Shown: one piece after another, positions 4,490 to 24,499 of the stretch
Layout: the number at the start of each line of letters is the position of its first letter
Position numbering within the stretch: the first letter of the stretch is position 1
Assembly (NCBI GenBank): GCA_017984315.1
Contig: JAGNZR010000008.1
Location: 20,775 to 53,218 of the forward strand
Direction of reading: 5' to 3'
DNA: 32,444 nt
From: Fusobacteriaceae bacterium
GTDB lineage: Bacteria > Fusobacteriota > Fusobacteriia > Fusobacteriales > Fusobacteriaceae
Notes under the pieces: generated by a model
Databases searched by the model: none
What the model saw: only the letters and a program-made list of their open reading frames with translations
Told to the model about the DNA's origin: nothing
Program-made: the position numbers and the translations under genes

Positions 4490-7489
4490 CTATATCCCTT
4501 TATAGTACTCAAAAAACTCCTCTATCTCACCATAATACTCAATTGCATTTTCATTCTTTATATATTTTATCTTACCTTTTTGTAAAAGTTCCATTATCTT
4601 TTCTATTTTTACATTACTTCCTATAAATTTAATATAAAAATTACCATCACACTCTTTTACCTCCTGCACACTTTCAACAGCAGATAAAATTCTTATTCGT
4701 TCAGCTCTGAAATAATTTTTTGCAACTTTAGGCATCTTTCCAAATCTATCAATAACCTCTTTTTCTAACTCCTGTAGCTCTCCTAAATTATTTGAGCCTG
4801 CAGCTCTTTTATAAATGCTTACCCTCTCTATTTTATTCATATACTCTTCAGGTATGAATCTATCCTCTTTTAACTCTACAACAAATTCTGAAATAGGTTT
4901 TATATAATCCCCTTTTAATTTAGCTATCTCTTCCTGCAGCAATTTCATATATAAAGAGTACCCTAAAACCTCTAAAGCTCCATGCTGTTTCTCTCCTAAA
5001 ATTTCCCCTGCTCCTCTTATTCTCATATCTTCTAAAGAGAGATGAAACCCTCCCCCTGTTGAGATATCTTCTAGGCTACGCATAGATTGCTCTCTCTCTT
5101 TAACTTTACTTTTATTCTCTTTCTTACTATCAATAATAAAATAACAGTACCCTTGTTCTGACCCTCTTCCAACCCTTCCACGGAGTTGATACATTTGGGA
5201 TAACCCTAATTTATCAATCCCCTCTATTATAATAGTGTTTGCATTCTCTATATCTATCCCATTCTCTATAATAGTTGTTGTAAGTAAGATATCAATCTCT
5301 CCATTTTCAAAAGAGCTCAGTCTCTCTTTAATCTCCCTTGGCTGCATCTGTCCATGAATAGATACAATTTTTATAAAATTAGGGATTAAACCTCTTATCT
5401 CTTTCTCCTTTTTATCCATATTTTTTACAGAGTTATAAAGATAGAATGACTGCCCCTCTCTAGCATACTCCTTCATTATTGCATCTTTTATATATTTTTC
5501 CTCTTTCTCTATATATTGATCTTTAATTGGAACCCTGTTTGGAGGCAACGTTTCTATAATAGATATATCCCTTATTCCAAGGAGTGCTAAATTCAAAGTT
5601 CTAGGTATAGGAGTAGCTGTTAAAGTGAGCATATCTACATTATCTTTTAAATGTTTCAGTTTCTCTTTAGCTTTTACTCCAAACTTCTGCTCTTCATCTA
5701 TTATTACAATACCTAAATCTTTAAATTTTATCTCCTCTGCCAGAACTTTATGAGTACCGATAACTATATCTATAGAGCCGTTAGATACCCTTCTTATTAT
5801 ATCATTTTGCTCTTTTTCTGTTTTTACTCTACTTAAGAGTTCAACTGTAAAAGGGTAATTTTTAAACCTCTCTTTTACTCTTTCATAATGCTGTTGTGCT
5901 AAAACTGTTGTTGGAACCATTATAACTACCTGCTTTTCATCATTTATAGCTTTAAACGCTGCTCTTATAGCTACCTCTGTTTTCCCGCACCCAACATCTC
6001 CACAAATAATCCTATCCATAACTTTCTCAGATTCCATATCTTTTTTTACATCATCTATTGCTTTCACTTGATCTCTTGTCAATGTATATGGAAAACTCTC
6101 TTCAAACTCCTCTTGCAGCAGATTGTCTTTAGAAAATTTAAACCCTTTATTTGTCATCCTTTTAATCTGAATCTCTATAATTTCATGAGCAAAAGCTGCA
6201 ATCTCCTCTTCTAATTTCTCCCTTTTTCTTTTGAACCCTTTTCTACCTAATCTATAAATTTCAGGCTCTTGTCCCGGTTCTAAAATATATTTTTCAATTC
6301 TGTCTAAATTACTAGTAGAAACAAAAAGTTTATCTTCATCGGCGTATTTTATCTCTAAATACTCTTGACCGTTTATAATGCTTAACCCTTTATATATCCC
6401 AAGCCCAAAAGACTCATGAATCAAGTAGTCCCCTTCTTTTATTTCGGATATATTTGTATGTTTTATTATTTTATTAGATTTTTTTTCTCTTTTTACTCTT
6501 ATCCCTTTTAACTCTCTATCAGTTAAATACAACACTCCATTATTTTCAAACCCTTCATATAACGGATAATGGTAATACTCTATATTGGAATAATCATTGA
6601 ATATATCTAAATATCTTCGATCTTCATCACTGCATATAACTATCTTTTTTTTATGGGATATTTTTTTTATCTCTTCATAATCTTGATATCTCTGTACCTC
6701 ACTGTTTGTGAATATCTGGTTATTTATCTCTTTAAATCCTAATACCCCATTGTAAAAACAGTTTTTTAATCTTTCAACATCATCTGGAGGGCTGCTTTCT
6801 ATAATCTCTTTCAGTTTATATTCCAGAACCTCCCTGTTTTCTAAAAAAAGTTCTACATCTAAGGATTTACCCTTATTTTCAGCATCTCTAAAATGCTCTA
6901 AAAAGTTTTCTATACTGTCTTTATTATTATCTATATACACATTTACCTTATCTATTTTTTCAATACTCTTTTGAGTATCTATATTAAAATAAGTTACCCT
7001 TTCAACTTCATCATCAAAAAGCTCTACTCTTATAGGGTTTTCACTATTTATTGGAAAAAAATCAAAAATATCCCCTCTTATGGAATACTCTTCTCTTCCC
7101 TCTATTAAATAGTTTCTTTTGTACCCCTCTTTGTCAAAAAGCTCCACAATTTTTTTCAAATCAATTTTTTTATTATTTTCTATAAAAAAACTGTTTCCTG
7201 AATACCTATATTTCTTTAAAAAATAATCTAAAGTGATTAAAATTATGAATTTTTCTTTGTTTTTTATAGCCTCTTTTATTTTATAATTAAATTTTATATA
7301 CTCTTCCTCTGTATTTTCCTCTTGTTTTATAATTTTTGTTTCTGTAAAATCTTTTAAACACCAATAATAATCGTTAAGATTTTTTTTGGAAGAACATAAA
7401 TATACTAAATTTTTATCTGTTTTTTTTATAAAAAATGGGATCTCACCTCTATAAAAATTCATTCCATCTAATTTTAAATTTTCAAACAT
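4490..7489 (-). CDS. mfd: Transcription-repair coupling factor Mfd
   Basis: ATP-dependent DNA translocase that displaces RNA polymerase stalled at lesions and recruits UvrA. 999 residues from my start, somewhat shorter than E. coli Mfd (1148). In order: a UvrB-like N-terminal region; the RNA-polymerase-interacting CarD-like domain near residues 350-410 (GDYLIHESFGLGIYKGL); helicase motor with Walker A GDVGCGKTE near residue 500, DEEQ near 597 and TLTATPIPRTL; motor 2 with QLRGRVGRG; and the C-terminal TRCF domain. The start is ATG 7489, preceded by TTGGAGG at 5 bases; this initiation region is duplicated 61 bases upstream (see repeat at 7477). First gene of the mfd-mazG-rqcP-ispE-spoVG run. 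Confidence 0.96.
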   Translation of the reverse strand: MFENLKLDGMNFYRGEIPFFIKKTDKNLVYLCSSKKNLNDYYWCLKDFTETKIIKQEENTEEEYIKFNYKIKEAIKNKEKFIILITLDYFLKKYRYSGNSFFIENNKKIDLKKIVELFDKEGYKRNYLIEGREEYSIRGDIFDFFPINSENPIRVELFDDEVERVTYFNIDTQKSIEKIDKVNVYIDNNKDSIENFLEHFRDAENKGKSLDVELFLENREVLEYKLKEIIESSPPDDVERLKNCFYNGVLGFKEINNQIFTNSEVQRYQDYEEIKKISHKKKIVICSDEDRRYLDIFNDYSNIEYYHYPLYEGFENNGVLYLTDRELKGIRVKREKKSNKIIKHTNISEIKEGDYLIHESFGLGIYKGLSIINGQEYLEIKYADEDKLFVSTSNLDRIEKYILEPGQEPEIYRLGRKGFKRKREKLEEEIAAFAHEIIEIQIKRMTNKGFKFSKDNLLQEEFEESFPYTLTRDQVKAIDDVKKDMESEKVMDRIICGDVGCGKTEVAIRAAFKAINDEKQVVIMVPTTVLAQQHYERVKERFKNYPFTVELLSRVKTEKEQNDIIRRVSNGSIDIVIGTHKVLAEEIKFKDLGIVIIDEEQKFGVKAKEKLKHLKDNVDMLTLTATPIPRTLNLALLGIRDISIIETLPPNRVPIKDQYIEKEEKYIKDAIMKEYAREGQSFYLYNSVKNMDKKEKEIRGLIPNFIKIVSIHGQMQPREIKERLSSFENGEIDILLTTTIIENGIDIENANTIIIEGIDKLGLSQMYQLRGRVGRGSEQGYCYFIIDSKKENKSKVKEREQSMRSLEDISTGGGFHLSLEDMRIRGAGEILGEKQHGALEVLGYSLYMKLLQEEIAKLKGDYIKPISEFVVELKEDRFIPEEYMNKIERVSIYKRAAGSNNLGELQELEKEVIDRFGKMPKVAKNYFRAERIRILSAVESVQEVKECDGNFYIKFIGSNVKIEKIMELLQKGKIKYIKNENAIEYYGEIEEFFEYYKGI

Positions 7490-7604
7490 ATTATCCTCCA
7501 AGTATATATCTATAACTATATTGACATTGTAGCTTTTAATTTTCAAACATATTATCCTCCAAGTATATATCTATAACTATATTGACATTGTAGCTTTTAA
7601 TTTT
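7477..7604. repeat. Perfect 61-bp tandem duplication across the mfd translation start
   Basis: Bases 7477-7537 are repeated exactly at 7538-7598, with 6 bases of a third copy (7599-7604). Each copy holds the minus-strand ribosome binding site TTGGAGG, the ATG and the first four codons of mfd (MFEN). In the upstream copy that frame runs straight into TAA, leaving a four-codon mini-ORF. Confidence 0.97.
7536..7550 (-). other. Four-codon upstream mini-ORF (MFEN-stop) created by the duplication
   Basis: ATG 7550-7548, TTT, GAA, AAT, then TAA at 7538-7536. It has the same ribosome binding site and spacing as mfd itself and ends 46 bases before the true mfd start. Whether ribosomes use it is not known; it would tend to compete with mfd initiation. 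Confidence 0.5.
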
Positions 7605-7685
7605 AAAAAAATAAAGCACTCTTTTAATGTATAAACTATTCTAGAAAGCTTATTACTACCACTTGTCCAATCTCCCTTCTATTTA

Positions 7686-7714
7686 TTGACTTTTTTTTAT
7701 ATTTGTGTGATAAT
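7686..7714 (+). promoter_or_regulatory. Sigma70-type promoter of the CpdB-like gene
   Basis: TTGACT (7686-7691), a 17-base spacer, and GATAAT (7709-7714), about 55 bases before the start codon at 7774. A second TATAAT at 7731-7736 lacks a good upstream element. Confidence 0.6.
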
Positions 7715-7773
7715 TTAGGCATTAATATTGTATAATTTAGTTTTGATTTTCTCTGAAGGAGGGAACCTTTTAA

Positions 7774-9546
7774 ATGAAAAAAGTTTTTTCATGTTTTTTG
7801 TTTTTTATGTATCTAACAACTTTCTTATTTTCTGCAGACACAGTTAATATCCAAATATTAGGAACTAGCCAGTTAAATGAGAAATTTATGCCTTATAATT
7901 ACGATACTGGTGTAGCTAACAGTAAAGGTAGTATGGTTCAACTTGCAACTCTGATTAGAAACCTGAAGAGCGAAAATAAGAATACACTGCTTTTTGATAG
8001 TGGTAATGCCACTTACAGCAATTGGTATGAACTGTTTTTAAATGATGATACCACTCCAGCTGTAGAGTATTTTAACTATACTAAATATGATGCCATTACC
8101 CCTGGAAATAAGGATTTTGACCATGGTATTGAGTTTTTTAATAAAATTTTCAAACCTTTTAATGGAGAAATAATACTTGCTAATTTGTATAAAAATGACA
8201 AAAGAGTTTATGAACCTTATAAAATTTTTAAAAAAGATGATGTAAAAATAGCTCTTATAGGAGTTATGACTCCATATATGAAAAAATTAGGTGAGGAATA
8301 CACAGTCGTTAATCCCGCTGATGAAGTGGCAAAAGTTATAACTGAATTAAAAGGAAAAGCTGATATTATAATTGTCAGTGCTAATGTTAAATTGAATGAT
8401 GAATATGGAACTCTAGGTTCTACAAGAGAGATTGCAAAAAAAAATCCTGAAGTTTCTATAATATTTGCAGGTTATGAACCTACTCTGATAAATGAAAGAT
8501 CTGAATCTGGAGCTGTTCTTATAAACTCTGGAAAATTTGGTGAATATTTATCTAAAATTAATATAGTTTTAACTAAAAAAAATAACAATTGGATTATTAA
8601 CGATAAGTCAAAAGATATAATCAGTGAAAACATTGCAGTGAAAGATACAACTCCTGATTTAGAGTTGGCAAATAGATTTGAAAAGTTTAACAATTTAGTC
8701 TTAAATGACACTCACAAAATAATAGGTGACCTTATTGGTGGAGATTTAGTAAGAGCTAATGATATATCTGAAATACCAATTGTACAGCTTGAGCCTACCC
8801 CTTTAGTTCAACTTATCAACGAAGTTCAAAGATACTATACTAAAGCGGATATCTCTTCAACACCAATTTTTAAAAATGATGCTAATATTTCAGAAGGTCC
8901 TATCAAAAAATCTGATATTGCTGCGATTTACAACTCTGATAATACTTTAAGAGCTTATAAATTTAACGGTGCTCAGTTAAAAAAATATATGGAGTGGTCA
9001 GCATCTTTTTACAATACTCTTAATCCAGAAGATTTAACAGTATCTTTTAATGAAAATATTAAAGGTTCTAATTATGATATATTTTCTGGAGTATACTATG
9101 AGATCAATTTATCTAACCCTTCTGGGATGAGAATTGAAAATTTAAGAAAATCTGATGGAACACCTGTTAAGGATACCGATATATTTACTGTTGCTATTAA
9201 TGATTACAGAGCGGATTCAACTTTATTCTCTGAAAAAAATGGGTTATTTAAACCTGAAGAGGTACCCTTAGTTATTGATCTTTATAAAACTAGAGGAAAT
9301 AAATCTAAAATACAAGAGCTTATTAAAGAGTATATCTCTACTGTTAAAGGTGGGGTCATCACTCCTGAAATGACTGAAAATTGGGAATTAACAGGGATCT
9401 CTTGGGATCCAGAACTACATTCAAAAGTTCTTGATTTAGTTGCAGAAAAAAAACTATCTATCCCTAAATCAGAAAATGGTAAGTCTAAAAACATAAAATC
9501 TATCACTATTAATGATTTAGAAAGCTTTGAAACTCCTCAACAGTAA
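7774..9546 (+). CDS. Secreted CpdB/UshA-like metallophosphatase-fold protein lacking its metal ligands (probable pseudoenzyme)
   Basis: 590 residues with a signal peptide (MKKVFSCFLFFMYLTTFLFS) and the full layout of 2',3'-cyclic-nucleotide 2'-phosphodiesterase / 5'-nucleotidase proteins: an N-terminal metallophosphatase domain (about 25-290) and a C-terminal substrate-binding domain (about 310-530, with AAIYNSDNTLRAYKFNGAQL and SNYDIFSGVYYEI). The expected metal and catalytic residues are mostly replaced: D-x-H is Q33-x-N35, the second Asp of D-x-G-D is N78, the GNH His is K113, the S-H of the distal strand is S-A203, and GHxH is G-Y234-E-P236. Only D75 and N112 remain. The frame is intact, with a good ribosome binding site (GGAGGG) and promoter. 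Compare the intact relative at 22949. A binding or scaffolding role is likely; hydrolysis is unlikely. Confidence 0.85.
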   Translation: MKKVFSCFLFFMYLTTFLFSADTVNIQILGTSQLNEKFMPYNYDTGVANSKGSMVQLATLIRNLKSENKNTLLFDSGNATYSNWYELFLNDDTTPAVEYFNYTKYDAITPGNKDFDHGIEFFNKIFKPFNGEIILANLYKNDKRVYEPYKIFKKDDVKIALIGVMTPYMKKLGEEYTVVNPADEVAKVITELKGKADIIIVSANVKLNDEYGTLGSTREIAKKNPEVSIIFAGYEPTLINERSESGAVLINSGKFGEYLSKINIVLTKKNNNWIINDKSKDIISENIAVKDTTPDLELANRFEKFNNLVLNDTHKIIGDLIGGDLVRANDISEIPIVQLEPTPLVQLINEVQRYYTKADISSTPIFKNDANISEGPIKKSDIAAIYNSDNTLRAYKFNGAQLKKYMEWSASFYNTLNPEDLTVSFNENIKGSNYDIFSGVYYEINLSNPSGMRIENLRKSDGTPVKDTDIFTVAINDYRADSTLFSEKNGLFKPEEVPLVIDLYKTRGNKSKIQELIKEYISTVKGGVITPEMTENWELTGISWDPELHSKVLDLVAEKKLSIPKSENGKSKNIKSITINDLESFETPQQ

Positions 9547-9570: not shown

Positions 9571-9605
9571 AAAAAAAGACTAATTGAAAAATCAGTCTTT
9601 TTTTG
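9571..9605. terminator. Bidirectional intrinsic terminator between convergent genes
   Basis: An 11-base arm AAAAAAAGACT (9571-9581) pairs with AGTCTTTTTTT (9594-9604), giving T runs on both strands between the plus-strand gene ending at 9546 and the minus-strand gene ending at 9612. Confidence 0.8.
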
Positions 9606-19249: not shown

Positions 19250-20302
19250 ATAAATATAAAAACTATTATAGAAAAACTTTATTTAGAAAATAATGCCTCT
19301 GAAGAGGAGTTACTTTTTTTATTAACAAACCTTGACACTGAATCAAAAGAATATTTATTTCAAAAAGCCTATGAAATTCGTTTAAAAACTTATGGAAACT
19401 CTGTTTTTTTAAGAGGGTTAATTGAAATAAGCAGTTTTTGTAAATCTAACTGCATGTATTGCGGTTTAAGAGTTGATAATAAAAATGCCCAAAGATACAG
19501 ATTATCTAAAGAGGAGATTATAGAGTGCTGTGAAACAGGTTACTCTTTAGGTTTTAGAACTTTTGTTATGCAAGGTGGGGAAGACGCTTATTATTCAGAT
19601 GAGCTCCTTGTCAGTGTGATAAAAGAGATAAAACTAAAATTCCCTGATGCAGCTGTAACTTTATCTTTAGGTGAACGTTCAGAAGATAGTTATAAAAAAC
19701 TTTACGATGCTGGAGCTGACAGATACCTTTTAAGGCATGAAACTGCTAATAAAGAGATTTACGATTCTGTTCACCCTGGTATGAGCTTTGAAAACCGTAG
19801 AGAGTGCTTAAAAATTTTAAAAAAAATAGGGTTCCAAACAGGAGCTGGTTTTTTAGTTGGGCTTCCTAACCAGACAAATAAAGATTTTGTAAAAGATCTA
19901 TTATTTATAAAAGAGTTAGAGCCTGAAATGGTTGGAATAGGACCTTTTATTCCACAAAAAAATACCCCTCTTTCTCACATACCTAATGGGAATGTAGATA
20001 CTGTACTTATAATGTTGGCTTTAGTTAGACTTCTACTCCCTAATGTTTTACTTCCTGCTACAACAGCTTTAGGTACACTTGATCCTATGGGAAGAGAAAA
20101 AGGATTCAGAGTTGGTGCAAATGTAATTATGCCTAACCTTTCACCATTTGAAAATAGAGCTAAGTATGCTCTATATGACGGAAAAGTTTTTACTAATGAT
20201 GAAGCCGCTGAGGAATTAAAAAAAATAAAGAAAAAAATTTCAGATGCCGGTTTTGAAGCGATTATGACAAGAGGAGATAATGTGCTATGGAAAAGGAAAT
20301 AA
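19250..20302 (+). CDS. hydE: [FeFe]-hydrogenase H-cluster radical SAM maturase HydE, non-canonical start
   Basis: Radical SAM enzyme that helps build the dithiomethylamine-bridged two-iron subcluster of [FeFe] hydrogenase. Read from 19250 it is 350 residues, the usual HydE length, with the N-terminal helical region, the SAM cluster motif C64-x3-C68-x2-C71, and downstream LRVDNKNAQRYRLS, TLSLGE, GADRYLLRHETAN and GIGPFIP motifs. Between the in-frame TAG (19235) and ATG 19454 there is no ATG, GTG or TTG. ATG 19454 falls inside the cysteine motif, so it cannot make an active enzyme. AGGAGG 8 bases before ATA 19250 makes ATA the best start (related genes would be expected to have ATG there). Overlaps hydG by 16 bases. 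Confidence 0.9.
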   Translation: MNIKTIIEKLYLENNASEEELLFLLTNLDTESKEYLFQKAYEIRLKTYGNSVFLRGLIEISSFCKSNCMYCGLRVDNKNAQRYRLSKEEIIECCETGYSLGFRTFVMQGGEDAYYSDELLVSVIKEIKLKFPDAAVTLSLGERSEDSYKKLYDAGADRYLLRHETANKEIYDSVHPGMSFENRRECLKILKKIGFQTGAGFLVGLPNQTNKDFVKDLLFIKELEPEMVGIGPFIPQKNTPLSHIPNGNVDTVLIMLALVRLLLPNVLLPATTALGTLDPMGREKGFRVGANVIMPNLSPFENRAKYALYDGKVFTNDEAAEELKKIKKKISDAGFEAIMTRGDNVLWKRK

Positions 20303-21678
20303 ATTTTATAAATCATGAAGAGATCTACTCTCTTTTAGAAAACAATTCAAAAACTTCAAAAGAGGAAGTAGCAAAAGTATTAACAAAAGCTAAAAATAAA
20401 GAGAAAATAACTGCAAGGGATATTGCTACTCTATTGTCTATATCTGACGCTGACCAACTACAAGAGCTTTTTGCTTTAGCCGGTCAAATAAAGAAAGATA
20501 TTTATGGTGATAGAATAGTAGTTTTTGCACCACTATACGTTAGTGATTACTGTGTAAATAACTGCACATACTGTGGTTACAAAAAAGATAATAAATTTGC
20601 TAGAAGAAAACTTACTAGAGATGAGATCCAAGAAGAAGTTATACTTTTAGAAAAAATGGGACATAAAAGATTGGCATTAGAGGTTGGAGAGGATCCTGTT
20701 AACTGTTCTATCGACTATATACTTGATGCTATCGATGCTATTTATTCAACAAAAACAGAGAGCGGAGCAATTAGAAGAATCAATGTAAATATTGCAGCAA
20801 CAACTGTGGAAGATTATAAAAAACTTAAAGAAGCTAACATTGGAACATATATCCTTTTCCAAGAAACTTACCATAAGCCTACTTATGAAAAAGTGCACCC
20901 TAACTCTTTAAAGAGCAGCTACGAATACCATTTAAACGCTTTTTCTCGTGCTATGAAAGCAGGGATTGAAGATGTTGGAGCTGGTGTTTTATTTGGACTT
21001 GCAGATTGGAAGTTTGAAGTTTTAGCTATGATGATGCATAATGAGCATTTAGAAAAAGAGTTTGGTGTAGGGTTCCATACAATCTCTGTTCCTAGAATGA
21101 AAAAAGCTGAAGGGATGAATTTAGAGGAATACCCTAATCTAATAGATGATGACACATTCAAAAAGATTGTTGCTATCTTAAGAGTTGCTGTTCCATTCAC
21201 TGGTATTATCTTATCTACAAGAGAGAGTGCTGAACTTAGAAGAGAAGTTATTAAATATGGTGTTTCTCAAGTAAGTGCTGGATCATGTACTGGAGTAGGT
21301 GGTTACAGAGAGGGTGAGACTAGAAAAGAGAGTACACAATTTGATGTTGCTGACCAAAGAACTCCTTTAGAAGTTTTAAAAGAACTTTTAGATGAAGGGT
21401 ATCTGCCAAGTTACTGTACAGCTTGCTATAGAAGTGGAAGAACAGGGGATAGATTTATGCAGCTTGCTAAATCTGGTAACATCCAGAATGTCTGCCAACC
21501 AAATGCACTTATGACTTTAATGGAATATGCGATGGATTTCGGAGATGACGATTTAAGAGAGAGAGTATTTAAAATTTTAGAAAAAGAAGTTGAAAAGATT
21601 ACTAGTCCAGAAATGAAAGAGTTAACTATAAAAAATCTTAAATTAATTAGAGAAGGGCAAAGAGATCTCTTTGTTTAG
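20287..21678 (+). CDS. hydG: [FeFe]-hydrogenase maturase HydG (tyrosine lyase)
   Basis: Bifunctional radical SAM enzyme that cleaves L-tyrosine to p-cresol and dehydroglycine and converts the latter to the CO and cyanide ligands of the H-cluster, delivered as an Fe(CO)2(CN) synthon. 463 residues. The SAM cluster cysteines are C89, C93 and C96 (DYCVNNCTYCG). The second, C-terminal cluster motif C-x2-C-x22-C is complete at C377, C380 and C403, which separates HydG from the related thiamine enzyme ThiH. Starts inside the end of hydE (16-base overlap) and stops 9 bases before hydF, so all three are one translationally linked operon. Confidence 0.97.
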   Translation: MEKEINFINHEEIYSLLENNSKTSKEEVAKVLTKAKNKEKITARDIATLLSISDADQLQELFALAGQIKKDIYGDRIVVFAPLYVSDYCVNNCTYCGYKKDNKFARRKLTRDEIQEEVILLEKMGHKRLALEVGEDPVNCSIDYILDAIDAIYSTKTESGAIRRINVNIAATTVEDYKKLKEANIGTYILFQETYHKPTYEKVHPNSLKSSYEYHLNAFSRAMKAGIEDVGAGVLFGLADWKFEVLAMMMHNEHLEKEFGVGFHTISVPRMKKAEGMNLEEYPNLIDDDTFKKIVAILRVAVPFTGIILSTRESAELRREVIKYGVSQVSAGSCTGVGGYREGETRKESTQFDVADQRTPLEVLKELLDEGYLPSYCTACYRSGRTGDRFMQLAKSGNIQNVCQPNALMTLMEYAMDFGDDDLRERVFKILEKEVEKITSPEMKELTIKNLKLIREGQRDLFV

Positions 21679-21687
21679 GTGATATAA

Positions 21688-22893
21688 ATGAACAATACAC
21701 CAAATTCAAATAGGAAGCATATTGGAATTTTTGGAAAGACTAATGCTGGAAAATCATCTCTGCTTAACGCTATTTTAGAGCAGGATATTTCAATTGTTTC
21801 TAGCATCCATGGAACAACTACTGATTCAGTTACAAAAGCTATGGAACTTATCCCTTTTGGTCCTGTTTTATTTATTGATACTGCAGGGTTGAATGATGCT
21901 ACTGAACTTGGTCATTTAAGAGTTGAAAAGGCTTTAAAAGAGTTGAAAAGAACTGATTTTGCTCTGTATATAGTAGATGCAACTGAAATTAACAGTCATA
22001 CGAACTATAATAATTTTCTGAAAGATGAGTTGAAGATTTTTAAACAGTATAACCTTCCTTATCTTTTAATAATTAATAAAATCGATCTTTTAAATAAAGA
22101 GAGTTTAGAAAAATTAAAAGAGTGTTATAGTGATGCAGTATTTGTTTCAACTCATGATAGAGAGAGTATTTTAAACTTTAAATCTAAACTTATAAAAAAA
22201 TTATCTGTAACAGAGGAGGATCCATCTCTTATAAAAGATTTAGTTCCATACAATGGAACTGTTCTTATGGTTGTTCCTATTGACTCTGAAGCTCCTAAAG
22301 GGAGGATTATACTTCCTCAAGTGCAGCTTATTCGTGATTGCCTAGATTCTGGAATAAAATCTTATGTTGTTAGAGATACTGAACTTGAGTCTGCAATGTC
22401 TGATTTAAAGCAGATTGATTTAATAGTTACTGACTCTCAAGCCTTTAAAGAAGTAGATGCAATCGTTAAAGGAAGATACCCTTTAACTGGTTTTTCCATC
22501 TTATTTGCAAGGCAAAAAGGGGATTTAGCAACTTTAGTAAATGGTGCTCACGCTGTAAAAAATTTAAAAGACGGTTCCCGTATACTAATAGCTGAGACAT
22601 GTACACACAACACTTCCCATGAAGATATAGGAAGAGTTAAAATCCCTAATCTTTTAAAGAAAAAAACAGGTAAAAATTTAGAGTTTGAATTTAAAATGGG
22701 AAAGGATTTTCCAACAGATCTATCCTCTTATGATTTAGTAATTCACTGTGGTGGATGCATGATAAATAGAAAGAATATGCAAAATAGGATGGATGAAGTT
22801 TTAGAAAAAGAGGTTCCAATTACAAATTATGGAGTAGTTTTAGCATATTTAACTGGAATTTTAGACAAAGCTACTGAGATTTTCAATAATTAA
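21688..22893 (+). CDS. hydF: [FeFe]-hydrogenase maturation GTPase and scaffold HydF
   Basis: Scaffold that receives the HydE and HydG products and delivers the two-iron subcluster to the hydrogenase. 401 residues. N-terminal GTPase domain: P-loop GKTNAGKSS (about 16-24), switch region with TTTD, DTAG and NKID. A dimerisation domain follows. The C-terminal FeS domain carries C305-x-H307 and, 45 residues on, H353-C354-x2-C357 (HCGGC), the family's C-x-H-x(44-53)-H-C-x-x-C signature. GGTGAT precedes the ATG. The hydrogenase structural gene is not in this window. Confidence 0.96.
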   Translation: MNNTPNSNRKHIGIFGKTNAGKSSLLNAILEQDISIVSSIHGTTTDSVTKAMELIPFGPVLFIDTAGLNDATELGHLRVEKALKELKRTDFALYIVDATEINSHTNYNNFLKDELKIFKQYNLPYLLIINKIDLLNKESLEKLKECYSDAVFVSTHDRESILNFKSKLIKKLSVTEEDPSLIKDLVPYNGTVLMVVPIDSEAPKGRIILPQVQLIRDCLDSGIKSYVVRDTELESAMSDLKQIDLIVTDSQAFKEVDAIVKGRYPLTGFSILFARQKGDLATLVNGAHAVKNLKDGSRILIAETCTHNTSHEDIGRVKIPNLLKKKTGKNLEFEFKMGKDFPTDLSSYDLVIHCGGCMINRKNMQNRMDEVLEKEVPITNYGVVLAYLTGILDKATEIFNN

Positions 22894-22948: not shown

Positions 22949-24499
22949 TTAATGTGTAAAAACTCTTACCCTTCCATCCTCTTTTTCAGGGAATTTTTTT
23001 AAAGTTTTAAAATACTCTGTGAGCACTTTATCTAACTCATCATAAACTGCTATATTTTTAGCATTTATAAACTGAGTATAGTCATCTCCCCCTGTTGCTA
23101 TAAATTCATTCATTACAACAATATAGTTTTTATTTAAATCAAATCTCTTTCCATTTTTAAATTTAATATTAGATACTCTCTCCCCTTGAGGTTTAGTTAT
23201 ATCTAAATTTAAAGTTATGCCCCCAACTTGTGAATAACCTCCTAAAAGATTTGGGGTCTCTCTAAATCCATGTTCCAATGCATCTTTTATCATTTTTCCA
23301 GTTACCTCTTTAGTCACAATATAGTCTCCAAAAGGTAAAACTGTTAAAATATCTCCTACAGTTATAGGACCTGGATTTATTGAAGCTCTTATCCCACCAC
23401 CTATAGTAATAGCCATATCTGCTTTTGTTTTCCAAACCATTGAATCTGCTATAAGATTTGAAAGATTAGTTTGTGACGCCCTAACTATCTCCCTATCTCC
23501 TACTAATTTTACAGGGGTTCTCCCTATAACTTTACTTGTAATTTTATTTTGTTCACTCTTTATCTGAGCAATATATCTTGAAAGTTCCGTTTCTTTCTCT
23601 TTACTGCTGCTCTTATTAACATTGTTAGAAAAATCCTGATTAGATAAAAGTTTAGTTTCAATGGAGTTATCATCAAAATCTACTTTTACAACTCCTATAT
23701 TTTCAGAATATTTTCCTGTTTGTACTATTGAACTCTTATTAACTAATATTTTTTCAGAAAGTTTTGTATGGCTATGACCGTCTATTATTAAATCAATCCC
23801 CTCAACATTTTTTGCTATAGAACTGCTTCTGTATCTTTCTTCTGTAGAGCTATCTAAGCCTAAATGTGAGAGCAAAATTATAAATTTAACATCTTGGCTT
23901 TTTAACTCTTTTACAATCTCTTGAGATGTTAAAATCGGATCTTTAAATACCAACCCTTTTACGTGACCAGTATTGGCTTTATATGCAGTTTCTGGAGTTG
24001 AAAGACCAAATATCCCAACTTTAACTCCATCTACCTCCTCTATTATATATTTTTTTGTAAAAGATTTCCCGCTATCTTTATAAACTACATTTGAAGCAAT
24101 TATATCAAATTTAAATTGGGAATCTATCTGTTTAACCCTTTCTTGACCATAGTTGAAATCATGATTTCCTAAAGTCATAACTTTTAAATTCATTTTATCT
24201 AAAATTTTTGCTATAGATTCCCCTTTTTCCAAATTTGCAAAAGGAGTCCCATGCAGTGTATCCCCTGCATCTAAAAATATAACCTCTTTATTTTTAGGAT
24301 CTTTTTTCAAATCATCTATAACGCTTTCTATATTAGCATACCCTAACTCTTTATCACTAGATATAGCTCTAGCGTGTACATCATTAGTGTGCACTATTAC
24401 AAGTTCATAATCTTTTGATTTAATGCCTTGTGTTGAACTGCATGAATAAAATATTGAGATTAAAATTAACATTATAATCATGTTTAATGTTTTTTTCAT
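22949..24499 (-). CDS. 5'-nucleotidase/UshA-family lipoprotein
   Basis: 516-residue surface or periplasmic phosphoesterase. The signal peptide ends in a probable lipobox (IFYSC, Cys20). The metallophosphatase domain is intact: D40-x-H42 in VHTNDVHARA, LDAGDTLHGTP, GNHDFNYG, LSHLGLDS and DGHSHTKL. The C-terminal 5'-nucleotidase domain includes MAITIGGGIRASINPG, VLPFGDYIV and a late TGGDDYTQF. It probably hydrolyses nucleotides to nucleosides and phosphate for uptake; UDP-sugar or cyclic-nucleotide activity cannot be excluded. Start ATG after GGTGGGG. It lies 46 bases past the pgk stop, with the pgk terminator in the gap, so its expression may depend on readthrough. The intact counterpart of the metal-less protein at 7774. 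Confidence 0.9.
   Translation of the reverse strand: MKKTLNMIIMLILISIFYSCSSTQGIKSKDYELVIVHTNDVHARAISSDKELGYANIESVIDDLKKDPKNKEVIFLDAGDTLHGTPFANLEKGESIAKILDKMNLKVMTLGNHDFNYGQERVKQIDSQFKFDIIASNVVYKDSGKSFTKKYIIEEVDGVKVGIFGLSTPETAYKANTGHVKGLVFKDPILTSQEIVKELKSQDVKFIILLSHLGLDSSTEERYRSSSIAKNVEGIDLIIDGHSHTKLSEKILVNKSSIVQTGKYSENIGVVKVDFDDNSIETKLLSNQDFSNNVNKSSSKEKETELSRYIAQIKSEQNKITSKVIGRTPVKLVGDREIVRASQTNLSNLIADSMVWKTKADMAITIGGGIRASINPGPITVGDILTVLPFGDYIVTKEVTGKMIKDALEHGFRETPNLLGGYSQVGGITLNLDITKPQGERVSNIKFKNGKRFDLNKNYIVVMNEFIATGGDDYTQFINAKNIAVYDELDKVLTEYFKTLKKFPEKEDGRVRVFTH

Follow-up and report, generated by a model that had tools for sequence, protein, structure and literature searches.

A CpdB-type protein of a Fusobacteriaceae bacterium with a dismantled dimetal site, a probable lineage-specific pseudoenzyme of the CpdB/UshA family

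CpdB of E. coli, SntA/CdnP of Streptococcus and the N-terminal half of YfkN of Bacillus are exported proteins of common fold with the domain order Metallophos-linker-5_nucleotid_C. The catalytic histidine (His117 in CpdB) is needed for catalysis in CpdB (PMC7922932) and SntA (PMC8981391), and in the C-terminal domains of both proteins the base is sandwiched by two tyrosines (PMC7922932; PMC8981391). Removal of either tyrosine from SntA of S. suis raised the KM 100- to 1000-fold for good substrates (e.g. Y530A with 3'-AMP), while one tyrosine sufficed to orient some substrates (PMC8981391). Natural CpdB-UshA fusions have already been described (PMC10454023). Inactive metallophosphoesterase folds with known roles are described in eukaryotes, e.g. 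the retromer subunit VPS29, which has this fold, lacks phosphatase activity and acts as a scaffold (PMC3101248). A limited literature search found no pseudoenzyme in the CpdB/UshA family, and two genome surveys of this family make, for the terms searched, no mention of inactive members.

A homologue of these proteins is encoded in the window, i.e. the whole 32,444-nt stretch of contig JAGNZR010000008.1 of a Fusobacteriaceae bacterium analysed here (Table 1). The gene at 7774-9546 is a real open reading frame, intact over all of its 590 codons. Export, domain order and fold are the same as in CpdB, SntA/CdnP and the YfkN N-terminal half, and one of the two base-stacking tyrosines as well as N116 are also shared with them; in contrast to these enzymes, replacements are found at seven out of eight positions for metal binding or catalysis and at one base-stacking aromatic residue. 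The 5_nucleotid_C domain (PF02872) was detected with a strong match (1.8e-24), while the Metallophos domain (PF00149) was matched marginally (9.6e-4, just below the cut-off), which is expected if its signature residues are gone. The N-terminal half of NCBIfam model NF006934, a CpdB-UshA fusion model of 1174 positions, matched residues 21-585 with 518 bits, a score under the curated full-length cut-off of the model. An AF2 model calculated with 57 family sequences had a mean pLDDT of 92; since the alignment consists of active relatives, what the model shows is compatibility of the sequence with the CpdB/UshA fold, and its pLDDT is not independent evidence of folding. With VIA-align, the modelled N-terminal domain was superimposed on those of CpdB and YfkN with Z of 37 (2.0-2.2 Å), and the whole chain matched UshA and the S. 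aureus structure 3qfk. The two-domain CpdB/UshA architecture and fold are thus present according to Pfam, NCBIfam and the AF2 model (VIA-align Z 33-37). The initial annotation had assigned a promoter, a ribosome binding site and a terminator to the gene. The first two were recovered, whereas the terminator is an AT-rich hairpin (shuffle z of -2.2) to which the consensus scan gave no score.

Table 1. Features of the cpdB-type gene and of the second nucleotidase gene, in window positions.
Feature	Position	Strand	Basis or remark
CDS, exported two-domain CpdB-type protein (Metallophos and 5_nucleotid_C), dimetal site lost	7774..9546	+	590 aa
Promoter TTGACT-17-GATAAT with extended TG	7686..7714	+	matches the upstream region of the intact orthologue at 26 of 30 bases
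Shine-Dalgarno sequence GGAGGG	7758..7763	+	sequence
Signal peptide, residues 1-21 MKKVFSCFLFFMYLTTFLFSA	7774..7836	+	judged by eye; AF2 without confident model there
Q33-x-N35, replacing the D-x-H metal ligands	7870..7878	+	alignment
N78, replacing the bridging Asp (UshA D84)	8005..8007	+	alignment
N112 (ligand kept) and K113 (replacing catalytic His117)	8107..8112	+	alignment
N204, replacing ligand His (UshA H217)	8383..8385	+	alignment
Y234-E-P236, replacing the H-x-H ligands (UshA H252/Q254, CpdB H257/H259)	8473..8481	+	alignment
C-terminal 5_nucleotid_C domain	8779..9408	+	best conserved part
S388, replacing a base-stacking aromatic (CpdB Tyr440, UshA Phe429)	8935..8937	+	alignment
Y478, second base-stacking aromatic (CpdB Tyr544), kept	9205..9207	+	alignment
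AT-rich hairpin and T tail, probable terminator, common to the convergent gene	9571..9604	+	-11 kcal/mol
Intact UshA-type 5'-nucleotidase, all ligands present	22949..24499	-	orthologue adjoins cpdB in the sister genome

When aligned with CpdB and UshA of E. coli, the window protein has a dimetal site that reads Q33-x-N35, N78, N112-K113, N204, Y234-x-P236, and N112 (N116 in UshA and CpdB) is the sole survivor among the eight ligand or catalytic positions. Q33 and N35 correspond to D31 and H33 of CpdB (D41 and H43 of UshA), N78 to D76 (D84), K113 to H117 in both enzymes, N204 to H225 (H217), Y234 to H257 (H252) and P236 to H259 (Q254). Except for N112, the ligand set of active CpdB (D-x-H, D, N, H, H-x-H) is therefore absent, and the catalytic histidine is a lysine. 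The replaced motifs had been named in the initial annotation, which had regarded D75 and N112 as the only survivors. This is right for N112 and wrong for D75, which is not a ligand; the bridging aspartate is the second one of the D-x-G-D motif (N78 here), and other members have E, A, S or G at position 75. The claim that nearly every metal ligand is replaced stands, and the loss reaches beyond it: G36, Q81, E114, N116 and W172 are also changed, as is the position of S388 in the C-terminal domain, and the conserved W-D loop beside the site is altered by W172L and a deletion of four residues. The protein contains only three histidines (11 in the orthologue) and none of them is at the site, so that a substitute dimetal site is unlikely. 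Judged from the residues present, metal binding and catalytic activity have very likely been lost, and the product is a CpdB by descent and fold without the marks of an active one.

Over 100 homologous domains from genome collections were compared. All CpdB-type relatives keep the full metal site where this region is present, with the exception of one single-residue variant, and the same set of substitutions, which the initial annotation had proposed to look for in orthologues, was found in none of the domains. The nearest relative (L031/L002), encoded in a genome of the same genus (G002, the sister genome), has 52% amino acid sequence identity and an intact metal site. It is a true orthologue, since mfd and four other genes accompany cpdB in the same order in both genomes. 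Identity to this orthologue is 65% in the C-terminal domain, 49% in the N-terminal domain and 32% in the linker. Since the CpdB-type relatives including the syntenic orthologue are intact, the loss is, as far as these sequences tell, private to the window's own branch, a single lineage, and there is no pseudoenzyme family. Orthologues with the ligands present had been named in the initial annotation as evidence against its reading; their existence speaks against a conserved pseudoenzyme family and gives no activity back to the window protein. The window protein and its orthologue group in the C-domain tree with clostridial CpdBs and not with the usual Fusobacteriota type, at a weakly supported fork, and in the N-domain tree they belong to a set of 16 rows with a support of 99, which suggests an older transfer of cpdB from Clostridia. 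No relatives were found on viral contigs, and the best matches among plasmid records were distant (approximately 31% identity or less). The genome itself, a 78% complete MAG, contains as far as assembled only two PF02872 proteins, both of them encoded in the window.

Several other explanations of this pattern were rejected. An ancient shared loss is contradicted by the other homologues examined, none of which is without the site, and a comparison of non-orthologous genes by the synteny. A sequencing or assembly error would have to account for changes in seven separate codons, of which two differ from those of the orthologue by two bases, and is also at odds with the colinear neighbours and the normal GC3 of 0.19, the same as in the sister gene.

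Other aberrant family members were observed among the homologues. In a Spirochaetales MAG, a CpdB-like protein (L056, 5209-6924) has D-x-N for D-x-H (H35N), a single-ligand change. A UshA-like protein (L134, G055:C80:12200-14100) has GNA for GNH (catalytic His to Ala) and Gln at the second base-stacking position and retains all metal ligands, and thus is another natural, differently broken member. In a third case (L133, G060:C101:57300-63900), the CpdB gene lies in two pieces approximately 4.4 kb apart (N-terminal part 57583-58746, C-terminal part 63149-63715), perhaps split by an insertion.

The second nucleotidase of the window, rightly described in the initial annotation as an intact relative, matches the C-terminal half of the fusion model NF006934. 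Outside the genus, the clostridial CpdB-UshA fusions (NF006934, PRK09419.1-1, approximately 1180 aa) are the closest sequence relatives; their N-terminal half resembles the 7774-9546 product and their C-terminal half the second nucleotidase. While the clostridial proteins are fused and intact, the window harbors separate genes 13 kb apart, of which only the UshA-type gene is intact. In the sister genome (G002:C2:43846-47589), the intact cpdB and the gene for the UshA-type nucleotidase are convergent neighbours. Between mfd and cpdB of the window, a sequence of 61 bp is directly repeated in tandem (7473-7608, 2.2 copies matching at 97%), and the repeat reaches into mfd at its 5' end as annotated. 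The TTG start assigned to mfd at 7546 is probably too early, since alignments of its product to other genomes start at about residue 17-20. Elsewhere in the window (19454-22893), three genes in a row encode a radical SAM protein, a radical SAM protein with BATS domain and HydF, likely a maturation cluster (HydE/HydG/HydF) for [FeFe]-hydrogenase.

The gene might be a pseudogene in the making, in which CpdB activity recently became dispensable and the site was lost under relaxed selection, with stops yet to appear. The restriction of the loss to one genome, the replacement of the C-domain pocket residue at S388 and the fast-diverging linker speak for this, and the latter two would also fit relaxed selection. 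The explanation is considered unlikely, although it has to be taken seriously, and the evidence on decay argues mostly against it. Columns were regarded as conserved when the other relatives agreed there at 90% or more, the nine active-site columns being known UshA active-site positions. Departures of the window protein fall on 8 of the 9 active-site columns, on 7 of 26 in the rest of the N domain and on 6 of 48 in the C domain (active site versus all others, 13 of 74, Fisher P = 4e-5), those of the intact orthologue on none, three and three, respectively. Since free drift of the N-terminal domain would also have removed its other conserved columns, of which 73% are kept, this domain does not appear to drift freely. 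Branch lengths (N/C domain) are 0.61/0.38 for the window protein compared to 0.28/0.12 for the orthologue. The same excess is seen in the sister nucleotidase, which is intact and encoded in the same genome (0.62 versus 0.26), so that the rate is not that of a dying gene; mfd shows no excess (0.38 versus 0.38). In neutral simulations started from the orthologue sequence and run until all seven residues were lost, a median of 38 stops (minimum 9) accumulated and none of 300 runs was free of stops, while a short neutral phase of 0.1 substitutions per site removed on average 1.7 ligands at the cost of 9.5 stops. The promoter is conserved as well, with a spacing to the ATG of 88 nt (89 nt in the orthologue) and a sequence identity that was reached by none of 60 shuffles, despite 4-fold sites that are near saturation (52% identical, 47% expected at saturation) and make the pairwise dS unusable. 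Random decay as the full explanation is rejected by the simulation and the conserved-column test, which bears out the view of the initial annotation, drawn there from the intact frame and the signals. These data say that the expression signals and the scaffold have apparently been kept; they leave the date of the loss within the branch free.

Three further explanations concern what the protein does. The initial annotation had proposed a secreted nucleotide-binding or regulatory pseudoenzyme; of this, the secreted pseudoenzyme is supported, while nucleotide binding is weakened. A C-terminal domain which senses or captures nucleotides outside the cytoplasm without cleaving them would be in line with the better conservation of this domain, with Tyr478 and the mostly kept frame of the pocket (N390, N476, R479, D435, G439) and with the substrates of SntA that one tyrosine sufficed to orient. 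However, just one of the two aromatic residues of the base sandwich (Tyr440 and Tyr544 in CpdB) is kept; the other one is Ser388 in a column with 37 Tyr, 18 Phe and 1 His among 56 relatives, and the pocket is further changed at A363/A364 and Y432. Given the effect of tyrosine loss on the KM of SntA, the former mode of tight nucleotide binding is doubtful, and nucleotide sensing is regarded as improbable. Even less probable is a re-purposed enzyme, in which a polar cleft (Q33, N35, N78, N112, K113, N204, Y234) would perform metal-free chemistry or bind an anion or sugar. The replaced site is rich in amides and lysine (four of seven N or Q, P = 0.02 under a crude neutral expectation), but this post hoc enrichment is a weak one, N, K and Y are favoured by AT-rich codon neighbours, and there is no second species with a conserved set that would mark a new active site. 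Continued CpdB hydrolase activity with other metal ligands, for which the retained fold and C-terminal domain could be cited, is hardly conceivable, as none of the seven lost positions holds His, Cys, Asp or Glu and the equivalent of the indispensable catalytic histidine is Lys.

The 7774-9546 product is best explained as an exported, catalytically dead former CpdB (2',3'-cyclic nucleotide 2'-phosphodiesterase/3'-nucleotidase) that is retained to bind or to act as a scaffold without catalysis (probability approximately 0.57), since seven of eight residues are replaced while every close relative has them. The residues are lost, the scaffold is spared and the promoter is conserved, in one genome and with selection after the loss undated. 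The dismantling of the active site would postdate the separation from the sister genome, with fold, C-terminal domain, signal peptide and promoter retained. With the two metals no longer held and the catalytic histidine gone, nucleotides would no longer be cleaved, and the protein would act outside the cytoplasm by binding instead of catalysis. It may serve as a scaffold or as the partner of, e.g., the intact sister nucleotidase, an envelope component or a host component, or may have a re-specified pocket between the two domains; both the present binding role and the partner are speculative. An anion or a sugar is a possible ligand of the rebuilt polar, amide- and lysine-rich cleft, although the amide excess is weak evidence for it. 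Heme binding and interference with complement are reported for SntA, as cited in PMC8981391, which sets a precedent for non-catalytic function in the family, while VPS29 is a precedent for the fold. The latter is an analogue only, since it is, unlike the window protein, eukaryotic, single-domain, devoid of a C-terminal nucleotide domain and weakly metal-binding.

The evidence comes from a single genome, the MAG described above, with no second species or strain showing the loss. Within these bounds, the protein is, more probably than otherwise, a lineage-specific pseudoenzyme of the CpdB/UshA family. That a dismantled member of this family has turned, in a single lineage and under its old promoter, into a binding protein that is exported, has no catalytic role and carries a rebuilt cleft between its domains is a more tentative proposal, held at somewhat less than even odds. 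Automatic naming would label the product a nucleotidase, which calls for caution in annotation. Since the sister genome has an intact orthologue at the same locus, the pair would provide a clean natural experiment on the conversion of an exported enzyme into a binder or scaffold.
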